Shown here: positions 988-62,786 of the stretch, in pieces | Layout of the letters: every line of letters begins with the position of its first letter | Numbering within the stretch: the stretch's first letter is position 1 | Assembly (NCBI RefSeq): GCF_008362905.1 | Contig: NZ_VFJB01000001.1 | Span: forward strand, 186,001-250,000 | DNA: 64,000 nt | Direction: 5' to 3' | Source of the DNA: Deferribacter autotrophicus | Lineage (GTDB): Bacteria > Chrysiogenota > Deferribacteres > Deferribacterales > Deferribacteraceae | Program-made: the position numbers and the translations under genes | Notes under the pieces: model-generated | The model's database searches: none | What the model saw: the letters and a program-made list of their open reading frames with translations, nothing else | What the model was told of the DNA's origin: nothing

Positions 988-1512
988 ATGTTAGAGTTAT
1001 TGAGAAAAAGAAGAAGTATCAGGCAATTTCAAGACAAAAAAATCGAATCTGAAAAAATCGAAATACTAAAAGAAGCAATTCTTCGCTCACCATCATCAAG
1101 AGGCCTTACCCCTTGGGAATTTATTTTTGTCGATGATAAAAATATTTTACAAAAGCTATCCACGGCAAAAACACATGGCTCTTCTTTCATTAAAAACGCA
1201 CCGCTAGCTGTAGTGGTCATTGCAGATACAAATAAGTCGGATGTTTGCATTGAAGATTGCTCAATAGCAGCAATTACGCTTCAGTACACTGCAGAATCTT
1301 TAGGGCTTGGCAGCTGCTGGGCACAAATTAGATTAAGGGAACATAATAAAGAAATGAGTGCGGAAGATTATGTGAAAAACATATTAAACATTCCCGAAAA
1401 TTATATGGTGGAATGTATCATTGGCATTGGTTATCCGGCTGAAACCAAAAAAGGTCATACAACTTCTGAACTGCACTTTAATAAAATTCATTGGAACTCC
1501 TATGGGAAGTAA
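988..1512 (+). CDS. Nitroreductase family FMN oxidoreductase
   Basis: A 174-residue member of the nitroreductase family: flavoenzymes that bind FMN as dimers and reduce nitro compounds or quinones with NAD(P)H. The N-terminal RRSIRQF motif (residues about 9-15) is the family's FMN-phosphate signature. It is followed by SPSSRGLTPW and, near the C-terminus, IIGIGYPAE. The ATG at 988 is preceded by AAGGAGAGAGAT, so this start is preferred to an in-frame one 78 bases upstream. The substrate cannot be assigned. A 9-bp repeat array begins directly after the stop codon. Confidence 0.85.
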   Translation: MLELLRKRRSIRQFQDKKIESEKIEILKEAILRSPSSRGLTPWEFIFVDDKNILQKLSTAKTHGSSFIKNAPLAVVVIADTNKSDVCIEDCSIAAITLQYTAESLGLGSCWAQIRLREHNKEMSAEDYVKNILNIPENYMVECIIGIGYPAETKKGHTTSELHFNKIHWNSYGK

Positions 1513-1631
1513 GGGTATTAGGGGTAGTAAAGGTATTAGAGGTATTAGAGGTTGTAGAGGTATTTAAGGGCGTAAGGGGAATAAGGGTTGTTGAAAAATA
1601 TACATATACAACTCCTAGTACCTTACTACCC
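1513..1631. repeat. Degenerate 9-bp tandem repeat array with inverted partner
   Basis: Positions 1513-1593 divide exactly into nine 9-base units close to RGGTATTAG (GGGTATTAG, GGGTAGTAA, AGGTATTAG twice, AGGTTGTAG and so on). After a 15-base gap, 1609-1631 carries C-rich sequence whose reverse complement begins GGGTAGTAA, identical to unit two. The whole can fold as a long imperfect hairpin. A second array of the same type lies at 44288-44433. Confidence 0.8.
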
Positions 1632-5456: not shown

Positions 5457-5613
5457 TACCTCCACAATGCTGGCGTCACCCCATTTTTTGCAAATCGGGC
5501 ATCATATTTAAAAAGAAAAAAGTATTTTCTTTTACATAAACTTTATAATATACTGACATATAAACCTACCCATTCAACTCCTCAAAAAAATGGGAAGATG
5601 CCAGTACCTCCAC
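5457..5613. mobile_element. Short MITE-1 element (copy C) between bioA and bioB
   Basis: About 139 bp (5466-5604) with ends CTGGCGTCACCCCATTTTTT on the left and, read inverted from the right, CTGGCATCTTCCCATTTTTT. It is flanked by the direct repeat TACCTCCAC at 5457-5465 and 5605-5613. On the left, four bases (AATG) separate the repeat from the CTGG end. The interior is AT-rich and lacks the structured core of copies A (37727-37961) and B (62538-62777). It occupies most of the divergent bio promoter region. Confidence 0.75.
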
Positions 5614-15938: not shown

Positions 15939-16035
15939 CTTTTAACACAGAACATTGCGAGGAGCATTTGCGACGAAGCAATCTATTGGATATCAATAAG
16001 TTACAGATCTATGATATCTTTTTATGCAATATCCT

Positions 16036-36256: not shown

Positions 36257-36458
36257 AGGATGTTGCATAATATAAAAATTGAAAAGCTGCAAAATTTCAA
36301 TTTAATCTGTAACATATTTATAACAAAAAGATTGCTTCGCTTACGCTCGCTGGTGAGGATTCGGCTGTTCTGTCACCATTGAGGAGCGGCAGCGACGAAG
36401 CAATCTCTTATTTACTAAAAAGTTACAAGATTAGTCTTTTGTTATTGTGCAACATCCT
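36257..36458. mobile_element. MITE-2 element (copy 2)
   Basis: The ends AGGATGTTGCA (36257) and TGCAACATCCT (to 36458) are exact inverted repeats. The interior carries AGATTGCTTCGCT on the left and AGCGACGAAGCAATCT on the right, matching copy 1 at 14598-16035 in ends, core and the AGTTACA segment near the right end. A clear 9-bp flanking repeat is not visible; GATTT occurs on both outer sides if one more base (GAGG / CCTC) is counted into each end. The right arm reads CATTGAGGAGCGGCAGCGA, a degenerate form of the sequence hit by the IS110 element in copy 1. Confidence 0.75.
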
Positions 36459-37717: not shown

Positions 37718-37970
37718 TACTTGTTTCAGGAGTCACCCCATTTTTTGCAAAAGGTTGTTTTATAGGTTTATGGGAAAACAGTTTGCGGGTTTAAGTTCCC
37801 ATAAAACCGCCATGGATGGCGGTTTTAGAGGAACTTACCTCGGAGCCAAACTGGACGTTTGGCGAGAATGAGCAAAATGTTTTCCCATAAACAATTCCAC
37901 ATAACTTATTGACATATAAGCATAATTCAAAATAGTCTTAGTAAAAATGGGGTGACCCCAGTACTTGTTT
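37718..37970. mobile_element. MITE-1 element (copy A) with structured core
   Basis: The element 37727-37961 (235 bp) has ends CAGGAGTCACCCCATTTTTT and, inverted from the right, CTGGGGTCACCCCATTTTTA. It is flanked by a perfect 9-bp duplication, TACTTGTTT, at 37718-37726 and 37962-37970. The right duplication touches the stop codon of the chemotaxis gene. No coding frame lies inside. Copy B is at 62538-62777 and a short copy C at 5466-5604. Confidence 0.88.
37766..37892. other. Covarying structured core of MITE-1 copy A
   Basis: Nested stems: P1 37766-37780 with 37878-37892 (15 perfect pairs); P2 TAAGTTCC (37792-37799) with GGAACTTA (37830-37837); P3 TAAAACCGCCA (37802-37812) with 37817-37827; P4 GCCAAAC (37845-37851) with GTTTGGC (37857-37863), loop TGGAC. 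CCTCGGAGC and GCGAGAATGAG beside P4 are unpaired and conserved in copy B. Copy B keeps every stem with different bases in P1, P2 and P4. Confidence 0.75.
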
Positions 37971-44185: not shown

Positions 44186-44287
44186 AACTCACCCCCATTT
44201 TTTTAAAATTTAACACCAAATGAAATGAAAAGCAATAGACACTTAACCTGGCATCACCTCAATTTTCATAAATAATCCAATTAATAA

Positions 44288-44433
44288 GGGTTGTAATAGT
44301 AGTAGAGGTTTTAGGGGTTTTAGGGGTATTAAGGGTTGTAAAGGTTATAAGAAACTTAGTGAATGTTACCCATTCTACAAATCTATCTTCCTATTTCTCT
44401 TTTTCCCCCTAATACCTTTACTACCTTTACAAC
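44288..44433. repeat. Second degenerate 9-bp array with inverted partner
   Basis: 44288-44350 divides exactly into seven 9-base units (GGGTTGTAA, TAGTAGTAG, AGGTTTTAG, GGGTTTTAG, GGGTATTAA, GGGTTGTAA, AGGTTATAA). After 54 bases, 44405-44433 is C-rich; its reverse complement keeps the same 9-base period (GTTGTAAAG, GTAGTAAAG, GTATTAGGG). It is the same design as 1513-1631 and fills the gap between the DUF1858 gene and the end of korB. Confidence 0.8.
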
Positions 44434-44473
44434 ATCCCATCAATTAGTTAGCTTCTTTTTAAATACTAACCAA

Positions 44474-45325
44474 TTATTTGTAAGCTGATAAAATATTACT
44501 TATATCTCTAACCCTTACCTCTCTTTCCACCAATGCCTTGTCTTTCAAAACCGAATGCTGCTCTTCATAAGATGGCTTCGAAATATCTTTGTAGATAATC
44601 CCTAATGCAAATCTATCTTCTTCATAAGCTATTTTATATGCATTTTCTTTAGAGGTAAAATCATAATTATCATCCAACTTATACACTCTATTATCATAAA
44701 AATCATAAGAAAATTCTTTAGCAAACGATACACATGGCTGTAAAACATCTATAAGTGCAAAACCTTTATGATTAATTCCTTCCTTTATTAATTCTTTTAA
44801 CAACTCGCTTTCCCCTGAATACCCTCTTGCAATAAATGTAGCCCCAGCACTCAAAGCATAAACAATAGGATTAACCGGCTCATCAATCACACCTTCCGGA
44901 GTTGACTTGGTAACAACTCCTTTTAATGTTGTTGGAGATGCTTGGCCTGTTGTAAGGCCATACGTCCTGTTATTATGAACAATGTAAGTTATATCCACAT
45001 TTCTTCTCATTGCATGTATAAAATGACCTAGCCCCATTCCATAGCCGTCCCCATCTCCACCATTAGCAATAACAGTGAGATTTTTATTTGCTAACTTCAC
45101 ACCTGTAGCAACAGGTATCACTCTACCATGTAGAGAATGGAAACCATAACATTTGATATAATTTACCATTTTTCCAGAACAACCAATCCCTGAAACAGTT
45201 ACTACTTCCCAAGGATTTAAACCAAGCTCTGCAATAGCCCCCTTTAAAGCATTCCAAATAGCATAATTACCACATCCTGGACACCATACTGGTTTTTTAT
45301 TTGTATTAAGCTCCATTGGCTTCAT
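44474..45325 (-). CDS. korB: 2-oxoacid:ferredoxin oxidoreductase beta subunit
   Basis: Thiamine-diphosphate subunit, 283 residues. WCPGCGNYAIWNAL is the family opening with cluster or TPP-associated cysteines; GDGDGYGMGLGHFIHAMRRN and NNRTYGLTTGQASPTT form the TPP/Mg site. KGFALIDVLQPCVSF is also typical. With the alpha subunit directly upstream (start and stop share a base) it should form a 2-oxoglutarate or pyruvate:ferredoxin oxidoreductase. The fused gamma-alpha partner and overall form favour 2-oxoglutarate, as used in reductive or oxidative TCA cycles. Confidence 0.9.
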   Translation of the reverse strand: MKPMELNTNKKPVWCPGCGNYAIWNALKGAIAELGLNPWEVVTVSGIGCSGKMVNYIKCYGFHSLHGRVIPVATGVKLANKNLTVIANGGDGDGYGMGLGHFIHAMRRNVDITYIVHNNRTYGLTTGQASPTTLKGVVTKSTPEGVIDEPVNPIVYALSAGATFIARGYSGESELLKELIKEGINHKGFALIDVLQPCVSFAKEFSYDFYDNRVYKLDDNYDFTSKENAYKIAYEEDRFALGIIYKDISKPSYEEQHSVLKDKALVEREVRVRDISNILSAYK

Positions 45326-62528: not shown

Positions 62529-62786
62529 TTATTTTACCTGGAGTCACCCCATTTTTTACAAATAACCCTATTCACACAAAATTGAGGAAATACATTTTTT
62601 GGGTTCAAATGCCCATAAAACCGCCACGGACGGCGGTTTTAGAGGTATTTGCCTCGGAGCTTCTACTGGATGTAGAGCGAGAATGAGAAAAATGTTTTTC
62701 CTCAATTTATTTCAGATTAACTAATTAATAACCATAAAAATATTTCTACTGCTTTTAAAAAAATGGGGTGACGCCAGTTATTTTAC
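62529..62786. mobile_element. MITE-1 element (copy B) with structured core
   Basis: The element 62538-62777 (240 bp) has ends CTGGAGTCACCCCATTTTTT and, inverted from the right, CTGGCGTCACCCCATTTTTT. It is flanked by a perfect 9-bp duplication, TTATTTTAC, at 62529-62537 and 62778-62786. It lies between ferritin and the aroF leader, directly upstream of the aroF promoter region. It has no coding frame. Confidence 0.9.
62578..62708. other. Covarying structured core of MITE-1 copy B
   Basis: P1 pairs 62578-62598 with 62688-62708 (20 of 21). P2 pairs CAAATGCC (62606-62613) with GGTATTTG (62644-62651, one G-T). P3 pairs TAAAACCGCC (62616-62625) with 62632-62641. P4 pairs TCTAC (62662-62666) with GTAGA (62672-62676), loop TGGAT. 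Compared with copy A (37766-37892), P1, P2 and P4 have different bases but still pair, while P3, CCTCGGAGC and GCGAGAATGAG are unchanged. Confidence 0.75.

Follow-up and report, generated by a model that had tools for sequence, protein, structure and literature searches.

Arrays of short words lying between genes have been observed in bacteria for decades, and STRR hairpins have been proposed to affect the stability or coupling of transcripts. In the account given in PMC2670836, STRR words are usually 7 bp long and their function is called unknown. For BrickBuilt, a MITE of Porphyromonas gingivalis with an internal minisatellite, the passages of PMC4596501 on its copies report that the number of internal tandem repeats varies between strains and that both ends are intact in only 4 of 19 copies. 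The Coxiella 23S rRNA IVS is described in the relevant part of PMC4990558 as having an S23 ORF flanked by complementary ends and as being cut by RNase III. Here we analyzed an intergenic locus of Deferribacter autotrophicus, named site 2, in a window (the whole stretch of DNA that was analyzed) of 64,000 nucleotides. Site 2 consists of two inverted arrays of a degenerate 9-bp word, which probably lie in the remains of a MITE; its history and a role in RNA are what we infer. Site 2 is like the IVS as characterized in PMC4990558 in having complementary arms at both ends, but the IVS lies in 23S rRNA and holds an ORF, whereas site 2 lies between protein genes and has no S23 or other ORF between its arms.

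The features of site 2 and of related elements in the window are shown in Table 1. Units of the left arm, agreeing with GGTNNTARR in 8 or 9 of the 9 letters, start at positions 44289, 44298, 44307, 44316, 44325, 44334 and 44343, preceded by a weak first unit at 44280 (7/9 letters), and the inverted units start at 44434, 44425 and 44416. An earlier note, which had described seven units plus three inverted ones, was thus correct, also as to the coordinates. C is absent from 44288-44351 and G from 44399-44437, and the spacer, read on the minus strand, begins by eye with a GGGGGAAAAAGAGAAATAGG-like sequence, as in other copies. The earlier note had also proposed testing the period against base composition, and this test was performed. 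In the left arm, lag-9 matches reached 43/63, against a dinucleotide-shuffle mean of 20.5, and were equalled in none of 5000 shuffles; lag 18 gave 36/54 matches (0/5000) and lag 27 gave 28/45 (1/5000), and the lag sum was unreached in 5000 shuffles even when any period from 5 to 13 was allowed. The unit-chain score for 44240-44480 was 23.5, with a shuffle maximum of 10.5 (0/1000). Because the shuffles never reach the lag-9 or the chain score, the view that the period is expected from base composition is refuted.

Table 1. Site 2, its neighbours and related elements, in positions of the window.
Feature	Position	Strand	Remarks
Site 1, the other array of the earlier note	1505-1594	+	inverted units about 1614-1630
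MITE, same terminal repeats, 135 bp	5470-5604		
MITE, same terminal repeats, 235 bp	37727-37961		9-bp flanking repeat TACTTGTTT
Small downstream gene, 67 aa	43982-44185	-	blastn 79% in G001
Terminal inverted repeat, MITE family (CTGGCATCACCTCAATTTTCATAAAT), outer end of site 2 element	44248-44273	+	
Short stretch, terminal repeat to array	44274-44279		
Left arm, 9-bp word GGTNNTARR	44280-44351	+	7 good units and 1 weak
Spacer between arms, 56 nt	44352-44407		without ORF
Right arm, three inverted units	44408-44434	-	
Neighbouring gene, 2-oxoacid:ferredoxin oxidoreductase beta subunit	44474-45325	-	G001 counterpart 78% identical
MITE, same terminal repeats, 240 bp	62538-62777		9-bp flanking repeat TTATTTTAC

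In order to find further arrays, the D. autotrophicus genome (2,535,300 bases in 10 contigs) was searched with a three-unit pattern, which gave 129 matches with up to 3 mismatches, versus 13 for the same pattern read backwards. Chains of units were counted in 32 loci and the window (241,832 bases, picked for having matches), and 39 chains were obtained versus 1 in the reversed sequences; they were grouped into 28 sites, so that the genome holds at least 28 array sites. All 28 listed sites are intergenic by an ORF test (at least 100 aa; site 1 overlaps by 8 bases), and some are paired, a plus array being followed by a minus array, which bears out the dispersed family with a defined structure suggested in the earlier note. 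At one locus (L059, 2442-2777) a plus and an inverted array enclose a tRNA-Leu gene at 2555-2643.

The 198 array units comprise 98 different ones. Unit positions 2, 3, 6 and 7 are fixed in 189, 181, 182 and 187 of them, respectively, these letters being demanded by the search pattern, and C occurs at the two pattern-free positions in 12/396 cases, against 18.5% C window-wide. Adjacent units agree in 2.43 of the 5 variable positions and units of different arrays in 2.39, a value as high being obtained in 588 of 2000 permutations. Since adjacent units are no more alike than others, each array looks like a series of draws from a single motif; an origin by local duplication was rejected on this ground, and the background level of likeness does not fit recent expansion by slippage.

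The outer end of the site 2 element matches the terminal inverted repeat (TIR) of a MITE family, contrary to the earlier note, which had seen no terminal repeats. The match is imperfect (77% identical to the terminal repeat of the MITE at 5470), and BLAST of site 2 against the MITE at 62538 did not find this end, which is too diverged; it agrees with the consensus in 24/27 positions, and the reversed control gave at most 18 in 56 flanks. To the right of the inverted arm no terminal repeat was found (best 13/27). A target duplication, of which the earlier note had seen no obvious sign, is indeed absent at site 2, the best 9-mer match to the left flank (7/9) being at 44511 inside korB.

MITE ends were also sought at the other array sites, using a 27-letter consensus, a cut-off of at least 19 and a distance of up to 320 bp from the array. 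An end is present on at least one side in 14 of the 28 listed sites, namely site 2 and 13 further ones, and in 18 of the 56 flanks, whereas the reversed end was found at 0/28 sites and never scored above 18 (0/56 flanks); the supposition of the earlier note that the arrays may spread differently from the MITEs was not supported. Some of these ends stand 150-280 bp from the array. The other 14 listed sites have no MITE end within 320 bp, among them site 1, where none is detectable (15 and 16/27). Both ends are present in four array elements (L046, L048, L064 and L085), and a fifth, L062, has one end in good condition and another that is decayed. The MITE at 62538 aligns over its first 53-62 bp with L062 and with L085 (81-83%).

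Genome-wide, the TIR gave 105 matches, versus 2 when reversed. TIR pairs have flanking repeats of 8-10 bp, with 9 as the best length (mean identity 0.548 versus 0.29-0.43 at other lengths; 28 pairs, with one left end entering the count twice over). The interiors differ: between these ends some copies have word arrays, others a GCC-rich hairpin or a CATTGCGAG-type palindrome. A palindrome of the form TCATTGCGAG...GAAGCAATCT is also dispersed (L174 at about 1370-1470, window 15959-16005 and 36381-36427, L084, L098 and L099) and is seen within MITEs bounded by these ends as well. An insert of about 100 bp, TTCAGGGTGTTGCAC...GTGCTACACCCTGAA, is seen in the MITE copies L089, L091, L094 and L082, apparently at one point.

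Site 2 shares with MITEs an ORF-less interior, a transposase element with the same ends elsewhere, and membership in a family of many dispersed copies. An intact MITE has TIRs at both ends and a target duplication of 8-10 bp, and site 2 has neither; because a single end scores 24/27 and the other side 13/27, we call it a relic and not an intact MITE. That there is one end only, that it is diverged, and that no target duplication exists count against our reading, and so do the listed array sites lacking an end within 320 bp, the ends at 150-280 bp from their array, and the arrays of other genera that have no such end.

A candidate source of the transposase was found in two related genomes (G002 and G008), where the same ends bound a 1467-bp element in all 5 copies examined, with flanking repeats of 8-9 bp. 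This element belongs to the same TIR family as site 2, but it encodes a 454-aa DDE transposase (DDE_Tnp_1, PF01609, 44.9 bits), which is full-length in each of the five; among NCBIfam models the best are of the IS4 family, all below cut-off. In 9 of 39 genomes of the order this transposase has matches, of which some are fragments, and G010 has the protein. The D. autotrophicus assembly gave 0 matches, and its MITEs are therefore orphans in this assembly. An IS110-type transposase was considered as the mobiliser, which would have made it an IS110 with TIRs and target duplications, and was rejected. In seven copies of about 1.5 kb with MITE ends (L076-L082, on C4, C1, C3 and C8), an IS110-type element of about 1.27 kb (L076 protein: NF033542, 199.8 bits) is nested at one fixed point (position 92-94) of differing 236-bp MITE copies, and since the point is the same in seven different backbones, the IS110-type gene is a passenger. 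IS110 elements target repetitive palindromes, as outlined in PMC11208160, and the seven insertions are such a site-specific targeting of a repetitive palindrome.

Arrays of the 9-bp word were found in 7 of 39 related genomes, one of which (G036) has a single match that by eye seems to be coding; a class-wide search found them in 7 of 47 genomes. The genome of the same genus, G001, has no 9-bp arrays; at the orthologous place the same neighbour genes enclose a TCATTGCGAG-type palindrome and no array, which would fit either a late arrival in D. autotrophicus or a loss in G001. In the fetched stretches of 20 array loci from the other genera g3 (19) and g8 (1), some of which hold N, no MITE end was present (0/20), and the g3 and g8 genomes do carry MITE ends elsewhere. 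Because these arrays stand without such an end, the word array is not merely a part of the MITE. Three of four orthologous arrays compared between G010 and G003, in a related genus, differ in length by whole units: L124/L135 with 12 versus 6 scored units and 45 bp of gaps, L118/L140 with a difference of 9 bp, and L144/L155 with 18 bp in the right arm; L129/L138 are of equal length.

The gene preceding site 2 in the direction of transcription we take to be of KorB type (korB), its nearest named match among the five found being from a Calditerrivibrio MAG (63%), and the 67-aa gene beyond site 2 is presumably DUF1858-like. Both are on the minus strand, and korB transcription would pass through the element. 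An Rfam scan of the window at gathering scores gave a tRNA as the sole match and no rRNA, and no similar DNA was found in plasmid and phage collections. The predicted RNA fold of site 2 has -49.1 kcal/mol on the plus strand (z -2.60; 2/200 shuffles as good) and -48.3 kcal/mol on the minus strand (z -1.82; 7/200), that is, it is only moderately better than shuffles. When the duplex energies of own and swapped arms were compared among 11 elements, the site 2 arms ranked 9th by row and 1st by column, the latter because its left arm is the longest. Co-adaptation of the arms in the 9-bp elements was therefore rejected on these energies, except for the S23 element L144, the sole one of the 11 ranking first both ways; the modelled pairing of the site 2 arms is no better than the common word predicts. 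With a moderate fold and arms generally not tuned to each other, an RNA role of site 2 is put forward as a proposal.

The word arrays were also compared with S23 (four-helix-bundle) genes. PF05635 (23S_rRNA_IVP) is present in 8 of the 39 genomes, among them 5 of the 7 with arrays; both features occur in 5 genomes, arrays only in 2, S23 only in 3 and neither in 29 (Fisher p 0.0017). Arrays stand on both sides of a small four-helix-bundle gene at L133 and on one side at L142, and the 9-bp word itself flanks S23 genes on both sides at L144 and L155 and on one side at L153. By eye, the flanks of 16 S23 loci are mostly inverted arrays of short words, the word differing between loci and being the same on both sides, with L151 as a clear exception. 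For counting, 25 of 30 fetched loci were used, the fragments L158, L159, L165, L166 and L171 having been excluded beforehand; the 25 are not independent, because some (L148, L150, L162) look like orthologues. A G-rich left and a C-rich right flank were found at 17/25 S23 loci versus 6/227 other ORFs, and the reverse arrangement at 0/25 versus 16/227. At least ten 7-mers are common to the left and the inverted right flank at 14/25 S23 loci versus 37/209 controls, with two or fewer shared at L148, L150, L162, L164, L172 and L173; the skew test is stronger than the k-mer test, which is mixed locus by locus.

A similar arrangement was sought in cyanobacterial plasmids, at 10 S23 loci chosen by hand among 30 listed of 36 records. 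At least 10 shared 7-mers were present at 8/10 loci and at least 20 at 5/10, versus 0/65 annotated neighbours in three of those records, and the skew test was positive at 5/10 loci versus 4/65 neighbours. Clear inverted words were seen by eye at 6/10 (L204, L205, L207, L208, L209 and L212); among the 8 above the k-mer cut, the words of L206 are for the most part in direct orientation, and at L213 inspection by eye showed none within 90 bp. These words resemble the 7-bp STRR of that group (PMC2670836). A search of the open-access literature did not find S23 genes between inverted word arrays outside rRNA.

D. autotrophicus has 10 S23 matches, and the four inspected (L146, L152, L163 and L169) have arms of other words, none clearly of the 9-bp word; G001, G002 and G021 have S23 genes and no 9-bp arrays. 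Eight of the 10 matches lie within 42 kb of a single contig (C6:2835-44775), some broken or in pieces. The match at L146 (C6) stands by eye beside sugar-nucleotide genes, and at L146 and L153 (G008) word arrays with different words lie near the same place inside one gene, presumably, from its look by eye, a GDP-fucose synthase. The S23 genes with word arms at L144 and L155 (g3) and at L152 (C8:87709) stand directly before prepilin-like genes. At L144 and L155 a single open frame covers S23 and the Thr/Ser/Pro-rich arm and continues into KTKGFTLIEL, and L152 is alike by eye. Such an insertion would be tolerated provided that a prepilin peptidase cuts the leader.

In view of these loci, site 2 could be a copy of an S23 (IVS-type) element minus its gene, with the MITE end as a secondary neighbour. 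The skewed flanks of S23 loci, the 9-bp word around S23 at L144, L155 and on one side at L153, and the co-occurrence across the 39 genomes speak for this explanation; we nevertheless hold it to be doubtful, given that the site 2 spacer is short and without an ORF, that the inspected S23 loci of the same genome use other words, and that three genomes hold S23 genes without 9-bp arrays. It is conceivable, if improbable, that a single widespread class of selfish element ends in inverted C-poor word arrays and that its sole gene, S23, writes these arrays: S23 and a polymerase would copy a short degenerate template repeatedly at 3' ends, leaving the same word on both sides, and ORF-less copies like site 2, as well as the cyanobacterial STRR hairpins, would be footprints of this element. 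S23 is kin to Avd, the partner protein of diversity-generating retroelements. Array writing by S23 would account for the common word in the two arms of many S23 loci, with other words at other loci, and for the finding that adjacent 9-bp units are no more alike than units elsewhere in the genome.

Other explanations concern function or chance. Site 2 might be a protein-binding array in which the letters GT..TA are bound in each unit and the repeat is kept by selection, as the near-fixed unit positions (though demanded by the search) and the likeness of the units to independent draws from one motif would allow; the scarcity of C at the free positions too, needless for a binding site, the other words in equivalent places at S23 genes, and the missing array in the same-genus genome make it quite improbable. 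A role in terminating or attenuating transcription between korB and the small gene would agree with a foldable element between two same-direction genes, but no terminator-like site was found at site 2, array sites elsewhere are flanked by divergent (L047) or convergent (L043) ORFs, and the array is not kept in G001, so that we give this explanation very little weight. Chance low-complexity sequence in a genome of 31% G+C would agree with the high AT content of the region and its one-sided scarcity of C or G, but the lag-9 and chain scores against shuffles have already refuted this explanation, and the excess of unit chains over the same fetched sequences reversed leaves it with practically no probability.

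Site 2 is most likely a one-ended, immobile relic of an array-bearing MITE. In the history that we propose, a word array like those at the flanks of S23 genes, and resembling STRR, would have been captured between IS4-like MITE ends, and the array-bearing MITE would have spread while the transposase was present. With one end lost, site 2 would then have become immobile, and only the number of its units would still change. It would be transcribed from korB toward the small downstream gene, and the arms, of which one is without C and the other without G, so that neither folds strongly alone, would pair into one long imperfect stem acting on the transcript. Such a stem may serve as an RNase III-type processing site or as a spacer between the two messages. 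In this order an IS4-like MITE appears to have captured one array family and dispersed it, and the inverted arrays that surround many S23 genes in two phyla are a testable lead. If the S23 link holds, S23 is the first gene to test as a maker or user of arrays, with site 2 as a compact example that has no ORF.

BrickBuilt, as presented in PMC4596501, resembles the array MITEs of this genome in that it is intergenic, has short tandem repeats inside that vary in number, and often lacks an intact end; its ends are like those of resident IS elements. BrickBuilt has a 23-nt unit and ISPg (IS5-type) ends, whereas site 2 has a 9-bp unit, inverted arms and an IS4-like end, and unlike what that account gives for BrickBuilt, the 9-bp word is also found without a MITE end in other genera. 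As with the STRR hairpins of filamentous cyanobacteria portrayed in PMC2670836, the site 2 family consists of degenerate tandem words that are short, intergenic, dispersed and hairpin-capable; it differs in its unit of 9 instead of the usual 7 bp, in belonging to another phylum, and in often standing beside a MITE end. The name STRR is used for cyanobacteria, and the match of site 2 is one of likeness, not of descent. Eukaryotic foldback elements such as Tetris likewise have inverted repeats made of arrays of short repeats, but site 2 is bacterial and far shorter, and its units are degenerate. What is new in site 2, compared with the known array MITEs and STRR, is the combination of inverted arms, a degenerate 9-bp word and an IS4-like end.
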